Shown here: positions 18,498-61,254 of the stretch, piece by piece
Position numbering within the stretch: the first letter of the stretch is position 1
Layout: each line of letters starts with the position of its first letter
Assembly: GCA_964017185.1 (NCBI GenBank)
Contig: OZ024869.1
Coordinates: 332,501-396,500 of the forward strand
Source of the DNA: Rugalucina vietnamica
Taxonomy: Eukaryota > Mollusca > Bivalvia > Lucinida > Lucinidae
Length of the DNA: 64,000 bases
Reading direction: 5' to 3'
Made by a program: the position numbers and the translations under genes
Notes under the pieces: generated by a model
What the model was told of the DNA's origin: nothing
The model's database searches: none
What the model saw: the letters and a program-made list of their open reading frames with translations, nothing else

Positions 18498-20515
18498 ATA
18501 CCCCCGGCGGTAGCCATCAGAGGTCATACCACTTTGAGACAAAAAGCAGATTACAGAAAAAGGTATACATCTAGTCTCATCAAAGGAATACCCAGGTGAA
18601 CTGTAAGCTACAAAGATAGAACATCAAGTTATCTTCTTCTGGTGTACATTTGTTTAAAATTTAAGAAAATTATAAAAACAAAGTTCTGAGACCTGAGCTG
18701 TATTATAGGAAAACCTGCTGGTTGCATATGTGAAAACAAAGATTTAGATCAGCTGCAAAATCAATCCCTCAACATTCTAAATCAGAAACTGCTAGTGTCT
18801 AACCATTTTGTGCTATATAGCCACATCTATCTCCAACCTCTTTGGAGATCCCAAAGAAAGGTTTTATCGTGGCATAGCTCACATGAAGTTACATCCAACA
18901 ACAACAACAAAAGAAACTTTTGGAGATAAAATATATTCATAAATAATTATATTCACAATGAAAGGCTTTGGGTTGAGTGACAGATGGAAAAACATAAGCA
19001 GGAGATAGCTGATTATTTCTTACACAACACAACTTATCATTCCCAATGTTTGTACTAAATTTCATCATCCTATGTCAAGCAGTTCCTGAGAAATTTCCCT
19101 ATTCATTGTACAGGAGTGACAGATGGAAAAACTACAAAGTGGAAAAAGAATGGAAAAACAAATACTAGCCATCTGATTTTCTCTTACACAATACACTTGG
19201 ACACTGTCTAAATATATACAAAATGTGAAGAAGCTGGCATAAATAGGAGCTGAGAAATCTGTGACGGAAATTTCAATCAGAGAAAAAGACGGATAAATAA
19301 AGTGACTGATAAGCAGGAGATGGCTGATTCTTTCTTACACAATACAACTTACCATACCCAATGTTTGTACCAAATTTCATCATCCTATGTCAAGCAGTTC
19401 CCGCGAAATTTTTAACAAAAATTTCCATATTCATTATACAGGAGTGACAGATGGAAAAACTACAAAGTGGAAAAAGAATGGAAAAACAAATACTGGCCAT
19501 CTGATTTTCTCGTACACACTACACTTGGACACTGTCTAGATGTATACAAACTTTGGAGAAGCTGGCATAAATAGGAGCTGAGAAATCTGTGACGGAAATT
19601 TCAATCAGAGAGAAAGTAAAATGGACAAGTAAAGGGACTGATAAACAGGAGATGGCTGATTCTTTCTTACACAATACAACTTACCATACCCAATGTTTGT
19701 ACCAAATTTCATCATCCTATGTCAAGCAGTTCCTGAGAAATGTTTGACAAAAATTTCCATATTCATTATATAGGAGTGACAGATGGAAAAACTACAATGT
19801 GGAAAAAGAATGGAAAAACAAATACTGGCCATCTGATTTTCTATTACACAATACACTTGGACACTGTCTACATGTATATAAAATTTGAAGAAGCTGGTAT
19901 AAATAGGAGCTGAGAAATCTGTGACAGAAATTTCAGAGAGAAAGAAAAATGGACAAATAAAGGGACTGATAAGCAGGAGATGGCTGATTCTTTCTTACAC
20001 AATACGACTTACCATACACAATGTTTGTACCAAATTTAAACATCCTATGTCAAGCAGTTCCTGAGAAATCTTTGACAGAAATTTCCATATTCATTATACA
20101 GGAGTGACAGATGGAAAAACTGTAAAGTGGAAAAAAGATGGAAAAACAAAATACTGGCCATCTAATTTTCTCTTACACAGTACACATGGACACTGTCTAC
20201 ATGTATATAAAATTTGAAGAAGCTGGCATAAATAGGAGCTGAAAAATCTGTGACAGAAATTTCAATCAGAGAGAAAGAAAAATGAATAAATAAAGGTACT
20301 GATAAGCAGGAGATGGCTGATTCTTTCTTACACAATACAACTTACCATACCCAATGTTTGTACCAAATTTCATCATCCTATGTCAAGCAGTTCCAGAGAA
20401 ATCTTTGACAGAAAAAAGTTTACACACACACACGCACACACGCACACAAACATCTTCACAGAAAAGACAAAAACTATATACCCCCTATATACTTCGTATA
20501 TGCCGGGGGTATAAC
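18498..20515. mobile_element. Pearl/Helitron-like element with five ~330-bp core repeats
   Basis: The phrase GCTGATTCTTTCTTACACAA recurs near 19323, 19653, 19983 and 20314, with a diverged unit at 19006, a period of about 330 bp. After the cores come a CACACACACGCACA microsatellite (20423-20450) and a terminal hairpin (ATACCCCC..TATATAC TTC GTATATGCCGGGGGTAT), then AACTAG. The left edge has ATACCCCCGGC. Core repeats, a microsatellite and a 3' hairpin ending in CTAG match non-autonomous Helitron-type elements described in bivalves. No coding capacity. Confidence 0.7.
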
Positions 20516-24644: not shown

Positions 24645-27600
24645 CTGCAAAACAAACCACAAAGGTAAGATTGTAGCAGTCAAGTATATGCAAATGCTTA
24701 CGTCGACTTACATAATATCTTATATGATTTTTTACCTGATGATGACTTATGTTCTGAATTTTGTAAAGCAATTAAGCTATCAATGTAAATTTGACTAATG
24801 CGGTTGTAGGAAAGACTTGTTTGACAATACAAGAATAGTCGAGTTGTTTCCCTTGGCCTACAGTTTACAACCATAATTCACGCATGCTCTCTGATACTGA
24901 GAAAACGTAGTTGCAGCTTACCACGGATCATTAGACAATCTCTTGAGTATTTGTTCAGTTGTTTCTGGGTCTGTCTCCAGTAACAACCGTAGAATCTCAT
25001 CATGGAGGCTGGCAGGAATCTGAAAGAGATGTTAAACATTTTAACTCACTAGAATAATTGTTTTCAAGTTTATACGGACATTTTTATGCAATAGCTAATT
25101 TCACTGGTGATCGAATTGGTTATTCTATTCTTGCACACCTTAAAATGTACGCATCGATGATAAAGGTCTACGATATTATTGACGTTCTACCGTTTCTACA
25201 TGAGCGACTCGGTATCTGTCCAGCGATAAGAAAGATAAATGTCAGCTCCTTTGACAGGCAAATATCAATGTTGAACATGCCTTACTCTTCCACAACAAGT
25301 AAAGCGGAAATACTGAAAATGTAAATGAATGATCTTGATCATTAATATGCTCACTGCTCTAAAGGTTCTCAGTTTTATTTTTATTTATTGTTAAAGCATA
25401 AGTACCTGAAACAGTTCATGATGATTAGTGATGATAGATTTGACCACGTCAATGACTTCCTTTCTCTCCTCAGCCCGGGCTACACTCTCCACCGTGAACT
25501 CTTTCTCTGTAGACTTGGCCTTGTGGAGGATGTTAGGACCGAACAGGGTTGCCAGATTGTGGGTATCCATCTTGTTACCAGGTAACTGAAAATAGAGAAC
25601 AAAACTATTTGAAAAGGTACATTTGAAATATTTGAAAAGGTCTGTTTGAAAACTATTTGAATAATTAAATCACATTAAGGCAAGCATTGTTTATACTGTG
25701 GATGATGAAAGTGTAATTCAATATAACTTTACATAATTTCACAGTAGTTTGCACGATAGGTTTGAAACGCTCAATCAAAATGCCGTTAATGGCAAAATGA
25801 TTTTTCGAAAATGTGTCTACATCTGCAGCCACTGAAGGGAATGCTTGACTTATAGCATGTACAGTCATGTTATATAGGCGGTTCATCTAGTCGTTTGTGT
25901 GAGTTATTGTGCTCAAGACCTTGTGTTATTTTCCTGTATTACAAACACGATGCACCCTGCCGAGAATATAATTAGGGGATAACTGTATTCAAATTTTTCA
26001 TTTGGGGCGGTATATCGTCGGATATACGGTCGGAAATTTTGTTTTACGGCGACGCGTTAGCGGAGCCGTAAAACATGATTTCCGACCGTATATTCGACGA
26101 TATACCACCCCAAATGAAAAATTTGAATATTGTTATCCCCATTCTAATGTACTTTTTAACTATAAACATCGAAAAATGCTTTGTTTTTCACGAAATGTGA
26201 GCGTGACGAGCGACGTATAACCACGACGTTAACCAATCAGAAGCGACGTTGCTCATGACGTTAGGTTTCCGACGGTACATCGCAGAATATACTGTCGCAA
26301 ATTTTTGACGTTATCCAATAAGACGTCGCGTAACATTCTCGAGTGCATTAGAATTGTAGTTCTAATGATATTTTTGCGCATCCGACACCTCAAAATAACT
26401 TCAAAAACGTTTCACAATACACCGTTTTTGAACAACAATTATCGTAATAAATTGTCAATATTTGGTTTTCAATTTGACGTCTTCATTTATCAATTAACTT
26501 TTAAACTCTGACAAAATAGACCCATAACTCTAAGAAGCCCAACATTTAATTCGACCTCACCAGAGCAAAACACGTTTAGGCCACCGATGAGAAAAGGATT
26601 TACTTTGATCATTGTAGAGATAGTGACGAATACGCTATGGGAAACATATGAGCCGCCTCGTGGGAAAACTCACAATGTGGTTTCCGAACAGGTCCGACAC
26701 AAACCGGCCTGTACAAGCACAGAAAAGAGCAAGAAGCTTGAAATTTCGGATTTAAGTAGAAGAGGAATTGTACTATCCGAGTAGCGAAAACAAAGGCGCT
26801 GATCAGCTTCGCGGTTACCGCGAAGCTGATCTGCGTCTTTGTTTTCGCCTATGTAGCTTGTTGGTTTTCCCATGAGGCGGCTCATATTTAAAATAACTAT
26901 CCTGTATAATTTTCGCTTTAATGGTTATGATCGTAATTAGGGCGGTATAGCGTGTCATTGGCCCATAACCATTAATTACATCAGAACTTCAGCTAAATCT
27001 GTGTATGCTTCAATGGTATTCTCTGTCGTGAAACTATCATTGTTGTCATAAACTACAGCTTTCCCTTTAATTTAGTAGATCACGGTGTGCTAGGCAGGAG
27101 GTTAAAGCCGTATATGGTTTGGGTCAAACAGCTCTACATTTTCTATAGTTGAAGCGTCAATACCACACATTCTATAGATGAAATACAGTCGTCGCATTAG
27201 TTTATGCAATGATACCTGGGTAAAACCTTTACAGCTTTACGAAATTTGTAATAACCAAAGGTAAAATCGGCGTTGGTTACGCCTGTTGTAAACCGCAGGC
27301 AAAGCAAGGGCAATCTAAATATGCATGAACATGATGAAATATGAACGCATTGTCGTGAATTGGCAAAGGTGGATGTTTGATTGCACTAATATTTGCTATA
27401 GTAAACAGACCCATCAGGTAGTTCCCTGCGTTGTGGTGTACCACAAGGAAAATAATGAGGGCGACTGCGTGTTGCTACTCATGGAACAAATATTCAGGAC
27501 AAAATTCATCCCGGTAGCAAACTTTTAAACACATAAAAAACGAGGAAATTATAGTTGTCTGTTTGACATAATAATGGGCTGAATTCATCTTTGGTTTCGA

Positions 27601-30600
27601 AACCGGGTGTTTTTATCATTCGAGTATTTTAGCTACGAAATCTTCAGTCATCCTTAACCCACAACAATAAAAGAGCCGTGGCAAAGAAAATTATACAAAG
27701 ACACGTTGCTTCAATGAAAATGCTAAACGCACATGGATTCGATCTTCTTTTCAAAGTGGACCTTAAAGATGCATTCCATAACCTTCCAGTTTGTAAACTG
27801 AACATGAGTGTGCAAGTTAGTTAATGTCCACCTGGCATTATGAGGCCGTGCGTAGCATCGGATTGGAAATAATCCAAAGCCTACATTGTTTCATACACTC
27901 GAGATAAGCCAATGGCGGGTATTGTACATTCTACACTTGGTACAGTGATAAGACAAAAACTGATTTTAAATATTAATTTGTAACAATAGAGTGGATTTGA
28001 TAAACATCTTTTGACCATTTATTGGAATGTTGCCATCCTGCATGATTTCAAATTGATCTAGATTCGTGATGTGTGTTACTCATGCGCCCTGTTGTATTGT
28101 AAAACGTGCTTCATCTAAACATTCCAGTTCCCACTCAGGTCACGAGTTTCAGCAACATATATGTGTTCAAACACGATAGATTTCAATTTATAACCCTTAT
28201 GAACAACACTTAGACTGAGGATGCACTAAATGAAGGAGTTTTCTCGTAACGTGTACGTTTTTCGAGATAAAGTAAAAATAACAATGATTAAATAATTATA
28301 CTCCATAGAACCTAGTTATATTTTACAAAACTGTAATTTTAATTAAACCAGCTGACATGACCCCATCACCAAGGTGTGACTTCTTACCGTTTGTCCGCTT
28401 TCATCGAGTGCGTCCGTGGAATGTTCGTTTACTTTGGACAGGAACTCAAGTAGCGCCCATAACGTGTCTCGATTTGGAACCGGAAGTAGTGATATCAACA
28501 ACCGGGTAGCTGACAACTGTTCATCTTCACGTGACAGTTCTGGAATTGGGAATAGATAAATATGGTATTATTAATGATAAACAAACAGATAAAACAAAAG
28601 CATTGCATTTGTATGCAGTAACTTTTCAAGTAAAGATCAAAATTTATATTTGTTTTCTGCCACGGTACTGCTAAAATGCCTATTCCGTATATGTTAGAGA
28701 CATTCGCTCATGGTAAACGCTGATTATGTCGGTCACAACTTTCATTTAACATTTACTGGACTTTATATCACTGAACTTTGTATATATAACGCTCTGCTGT
28801 CTGTTCTGTAGAAATGTTTGGCAAAATAATGACGCTACTATAAAAAACCTTTGCATAAGTCGGCACTCGTGCGACACAAAGTTCGACGCGTGCATTTCTA
28901 TTGCAGGATAAGATGTATAGTCTCTTATAAAAATAGTTTTGCGTCTGCTCTTAAACAGACTATATGTTGTAATTGATAATTGTAATTACCAGACACTTGT
29001 CTAATTAGCAAAATGGGATGCTTTAATTAAGTATGAGAGCATCATCACGAGACAAACTGCCATTTGGGTTTCACATTCAATCTAAAGTAGTGGTCCAACA
29101 ACTTTCAATATGTTTATAAAAATCGGTGTTTTTGGGCATCAAAACTAGACAGATCTTCAAGTACGCGTTCGAAAAAGTGTAAGGAACGACACACTCGTGC
29201 TCGCAATTCGAAACAGGCGATTTCTATGCGATACGGCCTATAGTATAACTAAAATTCTGGTCTATCTTAGTGTGGAAAGGGCAAATGTACACAACAAGAA
29301 TAGAAAAAAGCGATCTGAAAGTGAAAAAATCCTGCACTGAATTTGTGTGCCATAGTTTAATGTGGAAAACTATACCTGACTACTGCCTTTTAATAGAATC
29401 AATTTTCAACATTATACACCCATAAAGTTTAAGTTTCATCTAGAAGAAGCATGATACTTTCATTGTAGCATAGAAAGGAAAGTTTTCTATAACATTAAAT
29501 TATTATAATTACGCAAAATAGTTAATTGAAACTTTCTTTGGTGACATTATGAATATAGATGATGCGATAACATGTTACACAATGCATTCAACAGATAAAA
29601 ACAACCTGTAGATAGCGTTTTAGCTACGTTTAAAATGATAACAAAGGACATGCATTGATGTCAATTTTCTCTCAAATTAATTAAATGTTCGTAACTTGAA
29701 TACGCAATTGAAATGCACTTCTAAAAACATAATCTAGGTCTTCAGATACCGTATACACCCATTTTGGTAGATAAAATCGTCAAGAATAAAATATTACGTG
29801 TACTCTCGGTTATTGTAAACCAATTATATACTCACATTGGTCTAAACCTAACCAGAAAAAGTGGTTCAAGTCAAACCAACCATACATTTTAAGTATTTTT
29901 TTTTCAAGCATACTTTGGTGCTTTTGGTGTCATAACATCCTAATGATGGGTAGAAGTCCCATAAAATGGAGGCAACGTCTCGACATAACCATAGCAGTTG
30001 ACTCGGTAAGCCAAGACTCAAACAAACAACATCAGGAAAACATGTCCATGAAAAGTATACCCCCTTTAACCGCACTTTTATGTAGAAAAACTGGAGTTCG
30101 CAGGGGTACTTTTATTTTTCTTATTTTTGATCCAAAACATAGATTGTGGGAACTCGTAAGAACCGCCTCATCGAGGCGGTTCTAACGTGTACCCACAATC
30201 AATGTGTTTAGCAAAAATATTAAAAATATCAAAAATTTTCTAATGAAATTTTCAATTTTTACAGCTGAAAAAAATCTCTATATTGCACGGGCAAGTTTTC
30301 GTAAAGGAAACATTATTACAGTCATGCCAGATACAGTGTCTACAGGTGTACCTACCCCGAGTTGCTACCAGTGGAGAATATAGATCCCTCGTAAGCAAGG
30401 GTTCTGGTAGATCTCGGAAGTATTCTTTCAGCAGAGCACCAACTTCGTGAGGATTGTGTGTGTCGTTCAATTTCACATCTTTCCCAGAATCAAACTCATC
30501 CCGCAGCTGATTTGTTCTCTTCTTAGAAGCCCCAACTCTAAATATACCCAGTACCCGTAAACCTGGAAAATACAAAATGATCGATGTAATGTTTTGTGTG

Positions 30601-33600
30601 GAAATCGTAGTCAATTTTACAAAACATTTTATAGATGTGTTTCAGTTATCATTGTGCTATATACACAACACAGAATTTCACTGGTTGGATTAATGCAAGT
30701 TTACAAAAGAGACCTCGAAGACAAGTAAAACAAATGAGGGTGATTCTTAAAATAGTTTATAAGCAAGCAACCGATCCCCATGAAATGGCACCATAGCATA
30801 AACTACCTACGTCAAGGCATTTATGAGTACTATATAAAATGCTTACCATAAGTTTCTATATGTTGGACGCCAATTTTCACTCACATGACGCAATATCGTA
30901 AGCTACCAACTTCTACAGGGCAATTATGGGTACTATATAAAATGCTTACCATAAGTTTCTATATGTTGGACGCCAATTCGCACTCACATGACACAATATC
31001 GTAAGCTACCAACTTCTACAGGGCAACTATGGGTACTATATAAAATGCTTACCATAAGTTTCTATATGTTGGACGCCAATTCTCACTCACATGACACAAT
31101 ATCATAAGCTACCAACTTCTACTGGGCAATTATGGGTACCATATAAAATGCTTACCATAAGTTTCTATATGTTGGACGCCAATTCTCACTCACATGACGC
31201 AATATCGTAAGCTACCAACTTCTACAGGGCAATTATGGGTACCATATAAAATACTTACCATAAGTTTCTATATGTTGGAAACATAGTTTAACAATCTGTG
31301 GCACCTGTGGAGCACCCGTGGCATAGTTAGGGAGGTAATCAGGTTTGTGACCCTCTTGTCGTGCCGTGGACAGCGACAGAGCGTCTATTAGACTAGAACT
31401 AGTATTTCGGCTACTCTCCGATTCGGACAGGGAGTCGGAGCTGGCAGTACGCTGAAAATGATAGAGGCATCATATTATACCAAGAAGCGACTAGTGACAA
31501 AGATGTATCCATAACAAATATTCGTTGGATACTGCGGGCAAAAGGTACGTGGTTCTGTCCATTTGGTAAAGTAATCTACAGACTCGGATTTTGGGGCGGG
31601 GATTTCTTTCTGATTTCGTAATGGCTGACCAATGTCTACTTTTACTTTTAAAATGAAAAATGGTGACGTATGCAGCGGGCAATGTGCTTGCAAATCACAA
31701 GTTTTACTGAGACGGAGAACAATAGTACTTTCGGTTTTGAGATAAAAGTGCATAATTATATTGTGGCATAAGATATTCGATTTATAAAAGTGCCAATAGC
31801 AGTCCACTTCACCGAAGGCGGGCCTGGAATTTCGAATGTTGTATCGAAAACATTTCGAAACATCTATTCAAGATTCTGCTCGAAATATATCAATAATAAT
31901 GATAATGGGTAAACAATCTAATTATTTCAAATATAGTAAAGCAATGTCATTAAGTGAAACTCCGATCACATTCCTTAGTTTAAATGAAGTAAAGAAAATT
32001 GTATTTAATTTTTGTCCTTCCTTTTTAAAGTATTTTTATGTCGAACGCAAAAAAATGTACGTTTTATAGAAATTAAAAAAAGAAAACTATAAGATCCAGG
32101 GATATCTAAAAGACCCAGATGACTGTTTAGCACCCCAACCCCATTATGCACAGAATCGAAATCTTAACTTGCGACTTTTAAGTAAACGTTTTGTTAATGG
32201 CTTATCATTTTGTTCGAGGCAAATGTGTTTATGGGAGAGCTCTGGTTTCATCGATATAATATCAATAATAATTATGGCACTATCTATAAAAGGAGTGACA
32301 ATAATATTATTAATATTTCATTCTGCCCCAGGACCAAGAACATAAAAGTTCGATCATTCACAGATACAAAGTGGGTGTTTATTGCGGGGTTTGAACTCGG
32401 CTTGATACACAACGTTTTAGAAAACTAATAAACCAGCATGTGCCATTTCGTGGTGTTACTTACTTTTTGACTTTCATTTGACATATTACTTCCATTTTGA
32501 GTATAGTTTTCTTCCGACCCTTGCGATGAACTACTGGATTTTCTGAAAGTATATAGTTAGTTTTGCTTTATCCAACATCATTCACTAGTGAAATTTTAAT
32601 ATTAAATTCTGATTGTTCTGTTTTTACAGCATTCACTAGTGAAATTTTAATATTAAATTCTGATTGTTCTGTTTTTACAGCAGTCATGTTACTGACATTT
32701 TAAACAAATAATCTACTTTGATGAGGGTTGATAACCCGAAATTGTAAAATATGGCCCACCTTCTCCCAAAGAATGTTTTACTGCTTTCAACGGATCTAAA
32801 CGCATTTTATCATATATCCGTATATAATTATAGTTTCTAAGTTCTTCCACTGGATATTCTATATTACCTCGTCTGTTAACAACAATTTTATAAAAACTTA
32901 TTCGGTCTTCAATGGGTACAGATGAGCCATTACAATATATTTACCTGGGTCCTTGCCTATGGATGATGACGTCAGATTCTTTTCGTTCTCGGAGTGGATC
33001 GGCACTCCTCCGCCGCTGAATCTCCTGATCGTTGGCTACACACTTCGCCAGTGGAATTCCAAACACCATACCGGTAGGCTGCACCTCTGCATAATCAAAT
33101 AATGATAACAATATCAGATGTAGCCCCACCGATTCTAAAGGAGTGTGCGGTAAATTTAGATCAGTGTTTTTGGAATTAACTGATCATGCTGATCCTGAAT
33201 TCGGTTTGCATGAAAACGAATATTATGTTCTTGAGACAACATAACATTTCAAAAGGACGGCTATATGGATTAGATTATTGTTATGATATTATGTTGCTAT
33301 GGACACTGATCAGGAGGTGGATAGTGCAGTAAGTTAAATTGTATAGTGTGTTATATGCTCTAGGTTGCTCAAATGATTACAGTAAACTTGATGGTGGTAT
33401 GGAACCCTGCCACTTCAGAAGTATTATATCCTACCTTTGTCCACCTTTTCCCCCATCCCGTGTATAAGACCGCTGAGATTCGCTGATTTACTCCTCTTGA
33501 ATGACAACATGTGGCGTTTCCGTCTACCAGACTCATGGCGTTCTGTAAACAGAAAGTAAAGAGCAACTATAAATTATGTCTCTTGTCTGAAGCCAGTCAA

Positions 33601-36600: not shown

Positions 36601-39600
36601 ACATTGGCTTCTTTGGTAAGATTGGGTCCTATGTCAAAAGAGGGTTGACATTGTACTTATTCCGGAATAAAATGTGCTACAGCAACGCGACATGAACGAG
36701 AAAGTACAATTAACCTGCACTATGATTTCTATTGTAGCCTGAAGATCGTATCTTAACTATTCCGTTAAAATAGTTAATTTTACATATAATCTGCATTAAC
36801 ATGTTTGATGTATACCAATATACCTAAAAGCATGGTATCCCATCAATCACCTTGGTTGGTGTATATGAGTTTTGTTAAAAGAAACCCTGTCTGAGTATTA
36901 AGAATCAAAATGGCTTACTGAGCCACGAAGACAACCAAGGGGGTACATCAAAGCAAAGCATTTATACCGAATCTGAACGTTTCGTGTTGATATTCGTTTG
37001 TTTTTAGAATCATGAAGCAACTTATGATAGGATTGCCTGCTGCACTGGTCGCCTTAAATGTTTTCAATATATTTTAGCTCTTTAGTTTAGCGACATTATT
37101 AACGATTAGTTTAGCGACATTATATCAGATTGGCTTAGTTTTGGCAAGCTGTCTGACATTGCGGAAGTGTAGTATGGTAATATGCTAAACATACATTTAC
37201 ATATAGAAGGGACATTCATATTCATAAATAAATCCGGCCGACACATAATCGAATAATTCTGACAGGAATAGCAGGTCATTCTGGTGCATTTTGCCCTTGG
37301 TTTAGGCACATTTTGAACAAATCGATGCATTGATTTAACTAACCAAGGCAACAGCAAATTAGAATACAAGGACATCTTAAATGTTCTACTGTTTGGGGTT
37401 GCTTGTCACTTGGAACTTGGAACTCAATTTTAATGAAGAATTGGCGCATTATATTACGTACCTTCTGGTACACAAACTGACTCCAAAGTACTGACGAACA
37501 GAAGGTCCAGGAATCAAAACATTGAAATTCAAAATCCCAATCTAGAAACTCAAGGCGGGAAAGAAAAACAATACAAGGCATTTGGACGGAAAATGTCAGT
37601 TAGGATACCCCAACCAAAGTTCTACGTACCACATCATGCCATTGAAATAAAGCTTGGGCCAGCTGAAGTATATTACAGACGATGTACAAATACTCTGCTG
37701 CTAAAACAATATAAAACTGTTATGGGATTTTGAAAATATTATTACCATGATTAAATATTTTCTTCGATCATTGACCCGAGTTAATGGAGATCGTATGATT
37801 GAAAACTTCCACATTTTATAATAGGATGAGCCTGTTGCCAAGTCGAGCAAGAAACACATTTTATCATATATAATATCCATAAACTTGTGAGAAAAATACA
37901 CAAAATTGCCCAAAAACATACTGATAGAATCAGGTGATCAGAGAAATCAGGTTTTTATCACTGGCGTGAAAGATACAACCTAAAGCAGTGTGTTACTGTT
38001 AAATGGTGCGAACAAGATTTGCTTTACATTTAAAACTGTTAACGACAGGAATAAGTTCGAGCATACATTTAGGATTTTGGCTGTCTGCAAAGCCATTGCT
38101 TCCAATCACGATTGTATGTGTAGCTACTTCTACAGCGTGAGAAGAGTTAATGTGGTCAAGGACTGCAACACAAACAACGAGTCATTTAATGGTCATTCAC
38201 TCTGACTAACCGTATGTGCAGAAGTTTACAACCAAAATAAATTAGATTTTAATGAAAAATGGTGCAAGTCGGGATTGGGGCGGAATAAGTTTATCAAAGC
38301 ATAATGGGAAATAATCTACAATTAACTTGAGAAGAAAAGAAAGAAAATAAACTAAAAGTGATTCATCGTAGTAAACCGCTAGAGGCAGAAAAACGAAAGT
38401 TTGCCAAAAATAACAAACTGTGTGTCGTCTAAACTCTGACCTTTTGTGTCAATAGGTCACTAGTCATGCGCCTTAAGGTTATTATATGTCTGTTTTGTAC
38501 AAATCTGTGAAATGACTTGTAACTGTATTAAGTTATAGCTACTGTCAGTGGCGAAAAATTATGATTTATGTTTCGAGTGACATATGTTTGTCATCGTAAT
38601 TAGTAGTAGTGAGCAATTAAAGGCTCACAAAACTATATGAGTGAGTCTCGCCTGTCTCGAAACAAACGTTACAAGTTATTCCAACTCGCAAACTTTCGAG
38701 GCTTTCAGTAAAGTACATGATTCGTGTTATGTTGTCATGGGTATCAGCAAACTAATTGTGTACACGAATGCAAAGAATAAATCAGTAAAGAGGGTTTCTG
38801 ATAAAACAAATCAGGAGTACAAGGACAGAAACCATCAGAGGGTCTTTTCACATCCCTTACGGCCCTATTGTCGGTTTTTAGAGCAACTCTGATCTCCAAA
38901 GTGCAAAGAACCCTAAAGCCCAAGAGATAAGTACATATAAACAACACCAAATCCGTAATAAGTGGATACAGACATTGCTACATGTGATGAATGGACAATG
39001 CAAATTTGTCAGAAGGAATTCCTTTTGAAGTAAAATATCCACAAATTCAAAATCAGACGAGAAAGCTTTGAATTAATGGTTAACCCAGTGCTGGACACAT
39101 GTCTGAATCTAAGCTATGAACACGGGGCTTGTCGTCAATACTGTCACCAGCTGCTGAGAACATACAAGTGTTAACGCACCCTGGTCATTGATAAAACTCG
39201 AAGTCAAGAGTAATCAGCCTCCTGGGCATTAAAATATACATTATGGCATATATAAATGAGCCGCCCCATGGGAAAACCAACAATCTGCATAGGCGAAAAC
39301 AAAGGCGCAGATCAGCTTCGCGGTAACCGCGAAGCTGATCAGCGCCTTTGTTTGCGCTACTCGGATAGTACAATTCTTCCTCTACTTATATCCCAAATTT
39401 CAAGCTTATAGCCTGTTTCTGTGACTGTACAGGTCGGTTTGTGTCGGACCTGTTCGGAAACCACATTGTTGGTTTTCCCACGAGGTGGCTCAAATGTAAC
39501 GGGCGGACTTGTCATTACAGAGGCATGAAGTATAACGGCCCAGTGGTCATTTATTATGACCAGGCGTTTGACCAGGCGCAGGCATCAGAGATAAATGGAG

Positions 39601-59800: not shown

Positions 59801-59892
59801 GGTTGATGCTGAAGCATTATATACAGACAGGACAGACAAAGAGGCTCCATTAGCTGCGGTTTCGCTTGAGGATCTCGATTTCCATTAGCTTG

Positions 59893-61245
59893 TCTACAAT
59901 TGATGTTGCTTCCAAGACACTTTTAGCTATGATTGCAGAATTGTCTACAACTGATGTTGCTTCCAAGACACTTTTAGCTATGATCGCAGAATTGTCTACA
60001 AATGATGTTGCTTCCAAGACACTTTTAGCTACATGTATGATCGCAGAATTGTCTGCAAATGATGTTGCTTCCAAGACCCTTTTAGCTATGATCGCAGAAT
60101 TGTCTACAACTGATGTTGCTTCCAAGACACTTTTAGCTATGATCGCAGAATTGTCTGCAAATGATGTTGCTTCCAAGACACTTTTAGCTATGATCGCAGA
60201 ATTGTCTACAAATGATGCTGCTTCCAAGACACTTTTAGCTATGATTGCAGAATTGTCTACAACTGATGTTGCTTCCAAGACACTTTTAGCTATGATCGCA
60301 GAATTGTCTACAAATGATGTTGCTTCCAAGACACTTTTAGCTACATGTATGATCGCAGAATTGTCTGCAAATGATGTTGCTTCCAAGACCCTTTTAGCTA
60401 TGATCGCAGAATTGTCTACAAATGATGTTGCTTCCAAGACACTTTTAGCTATGATCGCAGAATTGTCTACAAATGATGTTGCTTCCAAGACCCTTTTAGC
60501 TATGATCGCAGAATTGTCTACAAATGATGTTGCTTCCAAGACACTTTTAGCTACATGTATGATCGCAGAATTGTCTGCAAATGATGTTGCTTCCAAGACA
60601 CTTTTAGCTATGATCGCAGAATTGTCTACAAATGATGCTGCTTCCAAGACACTTTTAGCTATGATCGCAGAATTGTCTACAAATGATGCTGCTTCCAAGA
60701 CACTTTTAGCTATGATCGCAGAATTGTCTACAAATGATGTTGCTTCCAAGACACTTTTAGCTATGATCGCAGAATTGTCTACAAATGATGCTGCTTCCAA
60801 GACACTTTTAGCTATGATCGCAGAATTGTCTACAAATGATGCTGCTTCCAAGACACTTTTAGCTATGATCGCAGAATTGTCTACAAATGATGTTGCTTCC
60901 AAGACACTTTTAGCTATGATCGCAGAATTGTCTACAAATGATGCTGCTTCCAAGACACTTTTAGCTATGATCGCAGAATTGTCTACAAATGATGCTGCTT
61001 CCAAGACACTTTTAGCTATGATCGCAGAATTGTCTACAAATGATGCTGCTTCCAAGACACTTTTAGCTATGATCGCAGAACTGTCTACAAATGATGCTGC
61101 TTCCAAGACACTTGTAGCTATGATCGCAGAATTGTCTACAAATGATGCTGCTTCCAAGACACTTTTAGCTATAATCGCAGAATTGTCTACAAATGATGCT
61201 GCTTCCAAGACACTTTTAGCTATAATCGCAGAATTGCCATGCCAT
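59893..61245. repeat. 51-bp minisatellite, 26 copies, open on both strands
   Basis: The unit runs GATGCTGCTTCCAAGACACT..TTAGCTATGATCGCAGAATTG..TCTACAAAT. Twenty-three units are 51 bp and three (units 3, 9 and 13) are 57 bp through the same ACATGT insertion, so the frame is kept. The plus frame reads (T/A)(N/T)D(V/A)ASKTLLAMIAELS per unit; the minus frame reads VLEA(A/T)SFVDNSAIIAKS. The plus frame has an ATG in most units but not at its head; the minus frame has no ATG start. The V/A variant shifts from mainly V in the left half to mainly A in the right half. A protein-coding role is possible but unsupported by splice sites or homology. Confidence 0.95.
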
Positions 61246-61254
61246 TCATAAATT

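Follow-up and report, generated by a model that had tools for sequence, protein, structure and literature searches.

How a coding exon comes to have its 5' splice site repeated five times in tandem, and whether the repeats influence splicing of the host gene, are the questions raised by a RhoGAP locus of Rugalucina vietnamica. The window, i.e., the whole 64,000-nucleotide stretch of DNA analysed here, corresponds to positions 332501-396500 of a 102-Mb contig and lies close to the contig start; positions below are those of the window unless stated otherwise. Exon edges were placed using AG/GT splice signals together with the reading frame. On this basis, the exon upstream of the array, which contains the start of the RhoGAP domain, would occupy 31259..31451 on the minus strand (193 bases, with a putative acceptor CAG), and the next exon, likewise with putative edges, would continue the domain in frame at 30356..30562 on the same strand. 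With predicted splicing between the donor at 31258 and the acceptor preceding 30562, the frame is preserved, a Gly codon is split as G/GT and a 133-residue stretch results, residues 51-131 of which match positions 1-82 of the Pfam RhoGAP profile (E = 1.4e-23). A sequence search of the PDB yielded 32 distinct sequences, most of which are named as Rho GTPase-activating proteins, and the best match was RalA-binding protein 1 (2.2e-13). The spliced stretch presumably resembles ARHGAP6.

We found that the last 21 bases of the upstream exon, TCCAACATATAGAAACTTATG, occur in five copies on the minus strand, starting at 31279, 31176, 31073, 30970 and 30867 and therefore spaced by exactly 103 bp, and that each copy is followed by GTAAGT or GTAAGC (GT starts at 31258, 31155, 31052, 30949 and 30846). 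Unit 1 (31177..31279) consists of the last 21 exon bases and 82 intron bases and contains the putative real donor, GTAAGT at 31258. It is followed by unit 2 (31074..31176), unit 3 (30971..31073), unit 4 (30868..30970) and unit 5 (30765..30867), which carry GTAAGC donor copies at 31155, 31052, 30949 and 30846, respectively; unit 5 is diverged past about 46 bases and its far end is nominal, the blastn alignment of this unit reaching 30785. Thus, the locus shows the head-to-tail units and constant period of a minisatellite or tandem repeat, with 103 recurring four times, as well as the donor-like sequence at every site that characterizes alternative 5' splice sites (GTAAGT once and GTAAGC four times). 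Tandem Repeats Finder independently reported an array at 30816-31279 (period 103, 4.5 copies, 95% matches). Moreover, a degenerate 18-base junction pattern, written from the array units themselves, had five matches in the window at up to two mismatches, all five inside the array, compared with a mean of 0.30 in shuffled sequences, none of which reached five (0/100). These results bear out the original prediction in the positions of the exon-end copies and of the donors, in the GTAAGC sequence of the four downstream copies (the putative true donor differing as GTAAGT), and in the anatomy of an array built from an exon/intron junction, 21 exon bases plus a donor making up part of every unit. The placement of the true donor in the last unit has to be reversed, as transcript order puts it in the first.

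The array had also been described as an exact 103-bp repeat, which holds for the period but not for the sequence. Any two of units 1-4 share 98-100 of 103 positions, with 8 of 103 columns variable, whereas unit 5 matches them at only 66-68 of 103 when compared without gaps. The first ~46 bases of unit 5 are nearly identical to those of the other units, and the remainder has drifted with a 3-base shift. When this tail was compared in register (offset -3), 29 of 51 bases agreed, a level that none of 42,087 overlapping placements in other parts of the window attained (best, 27). A free local alignment of the tail without anchoring was weakly significant, its score being reached by 96 of 2,000 shuffles, and because this unanchored similarity is weak, any age for the first duplication is tentative. 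The pattern probably reflects a duplication of some age, after which the inner units were recently homogenised. We also considered special conservation of the exon copies, given that none of the eight variable columns among units 1-4 falls within the 21 exon columns. This candidate was rejected: such an outcome is expected by chance (P = 0.15), so that finding the exon copies identical is no evidence of selection.

Translation of all four extended exons led to the same TAA, located within the intron part of unit 1 (31177..31279, minus strand) and eight codons beyond the last whole exon codon, so that each extension contains the premature stop typical of unproductive splicing. The truncated product had no Pfam match at E 0.001. 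Early truncation within the RhoGAP domain is thus upheld, and the in-frame TAA proposed for a 103-nt extension is indeed present as an early stop. The role originally given to the frame shift does not stand, because every downstream donor meets the TAA in unit 1, which makes both the 103-nt shift and the number of added units irrelevant. Since all extended isoforms keep this stop, the downstream donors cannot productively replace the first donor, and the suggestion that the array buffers splicing is contradicted for this allele. Non-productive isoforms are the possible products predicted from the downstream donors.

We further compared the predicted strength of the five donors. Using a U1 5' end sequence, the first donor was predicted to pair with U1 at -11.0 kcal/mol and each of the four copies at -8.0 kcal/mol, against -14.0 kcal/mol for a consensus donor. 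This difference comes from position +6, where unit 1 has T and all four copies have C; among units 1-4, no other change is private to unit 1. The T at this position would fit selection on the real donor, one base being little evidence. The 9-nt unpaired probability was 0.002-0.005 at all five donors, i.e., they are predicted to be rather closed; across 923 positions of the region the median was 0.0145 and the lower quartile 0.0031, with three of the five donors beneath this quartile. Hiding of donors by RNA structure was rejected as a candidate, because predicted closure does not set the true donor apart from its copies. Segments of 134 nt from the five units did not fold more stably than shuffles (z = 0.19, 0.13, -0.38, 0.48 and -0.22), and for a 753-nt stretch the shuffles were the more stable (z = 1.50; 19 of 20 folded at least as well). 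A ten-base near-complement of the donor GTAAGC (a GCTTAC stretch with at most one mismatch) occurs in units 1, 3 and 4, at 31212, 31006 and 30903 on the minus strand, and has been lost from unit 2 through one further change. A loose match to it is also present at four other minus-strand places in the window and at five plus-strand places besides the donors, and these near-complements do not distinguish the first donor from the copies.

A genome search (1.09 Gb, 47 contigs), in which very common words were skipped and the best candidates alone were scored, placed the array at one location only (contig C1, 363316-363779). Within the window, blastn outside the array returned a single 26-base place (E = 0.43), and viral contigs contained no exact match to a 26-base junction pattern. 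Arrays with a period of at least 30 are common in this genome: 28 were detected in 20 sampled 10-kb stretches from ten contigs (12,977 of 200,000 bases), five of them with at least four copies, and the window holds six (4,255 of 64,000 bases). Extrapolation to the whole genome gives roughly 150,000 such arrays as an order of magnitude, some of which should coincide with exon edges. Among 40 kinase-exon matches, hand-picked as short and free of internal stops from 136 that were counted, none overlapped an array of this kind and two had one in their 500-base flanks, the edges of profile matches being not exact exon edges. The lack of overlap in this sample (0/40) therefore suggests that arrays at exons are uncommon.

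Overall, we consider it likely that the locus is a local minisatellite that grew from tandem duplication straddling an exon/intron junction and is tolerated since the first donor is intact. The starting event would have been a tandem duplication of a 103-bp segment that included the junction by chance; unequal crossing-over, slippage or gene conversion would later have expanded it to about five units and made units 1-4 alike. All sequence past the first donor would be spliced out as intron, and the downstream donors would be pseudo-sites whose low-level use yields a truncated message expected to undergo nonsense-mediated decay. Tolerance of the array would follow from its 5' end, where the exon body and the donor predicted to pair best with U1 are kept. 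The minisatellite reading is supported by the exact spacing of the five units, the single genomic place found and the abundance of such arrays, and the combination of a diverged unit 5 with closely similar units 1-4 is the edge pattern expected with interior homogenisation. The in-register match of the unit 5 tail, the +6 base private to unit 1 that adds predicted U1 pairing and the unremarkable folds of the unit segments speak for it as well. The kinase-exon sample counts against regarding such an array as commonplace. The array is most likely an ordinary kind of repeat in an uncommon placement, not a demonstrated splicing switch. Tandem copies would also result if an artefact of assembly or sequencing had multiplied a single unit, and a single assembly is the source of the data; this is very unlikely in light of the eight columns that differ among units 1-4, the clear divergence of unit 5 and the chromosome-sized (102-Mb) contig. 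In addition, 464 bp is a short distance for long reads to span, which argues against an artefact if the assembly used them.

Functional explanations start from the intact donors. Regulated unproductive splicing, in which the extra donors compete for U1, the early-stop message lowers RhoGAP output and copy number tunes the effect, would draw on the GTAAGC retained with a predicted U1 match in 4/4 copies, on the shared early TAA and on the truncated product devoid of a Pfam match at the E 0.001 threshold; with all five donors predicted to be rather closed, access could also be limiting. We nevertheless regard it as unlikely, given that the predicted U1 match of the copies is weaker than that of the first donor, that the unchanged 21 exon columns are expected by chance and that the RNA folds are not unusually stable. 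A more specific form, in which a copy-number-variable donor array sets the unproductive RhoGAP fraction through competing U1 sites and so acts as a heritable splicing 'dial', is a long shot. The copies do carry the exon end and a donor, as a splicing buffer would need for downstream donors to substitute upon failure of the first; such transcripts retain the unit 1 TAA, eight codons after the exon's last complete codon, and cannot encode the protein, which leaves this explanation next to no chance here, and it could hold for alleles without the unit 1 stop alone.

Compared with known systems, the minisatellite that we favour shares with intronic minisatellites or VNTRs a period of about 100 bp, a head-to-tail arrangement, a homogenised interior and a diverged edge unit, and differs from them in that the coding exon itself forms one end of the array and the splice donor lies within the unit. 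Similarly, it resembles alternative 5' splice sites coupled to nonsense-mediated decay in that use of a downstream donor would lead to an early stop; unlike them, its donors are repeated in a five-unit array and are predicted from sequence. The closest known case that we found is the potato RdRp gene, in which a tandem genomic duplication extends across an intron/exon boundary and a single added copy that includes the 3' splice site gave rise to a new intron, with RNA-seq support (Ma, Lan and Niu 2016, PMC4974935). Both duplications span a splice junction and copy splicing signals, with copies that differ by point changes; the potato case concerns a 3' splice site and one extra copy (PMC4974935), whereas the present array places five units over a 5' splice site and is described from its sequence. 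An array of repeated 5' splice sites was not described in the open-licence literature searched. With five almost identical and equally spaced donors, the first of which differs at +6, the array represents a natural competition experiment that bears on which of several repeated donors the spliceosome selects, and on how far tandem repeats can grow across a coding junction before the gene is harmed.

The window also contains other repeats. Long tandem arrays are located at 59-898 (151-bp unit, 4.7 copies) and 18994-20415 (328-bp unit, 4.3 copies), and a 51-bp repeat of about 26 copies spans 59850-61253; the unit of the latter is a multiple of 3, and it is open throughout on both strands (467 aa on the minus and 465 aa on the plus strand). 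Similar conceptual peptides (ADQLRG.READ.RLC.R) were found on both strands, at 26670-26924 (minus), 39185-39385 (minus) and 39256-39411 (plus), and their recurrence suggests a dispersed repeat element.
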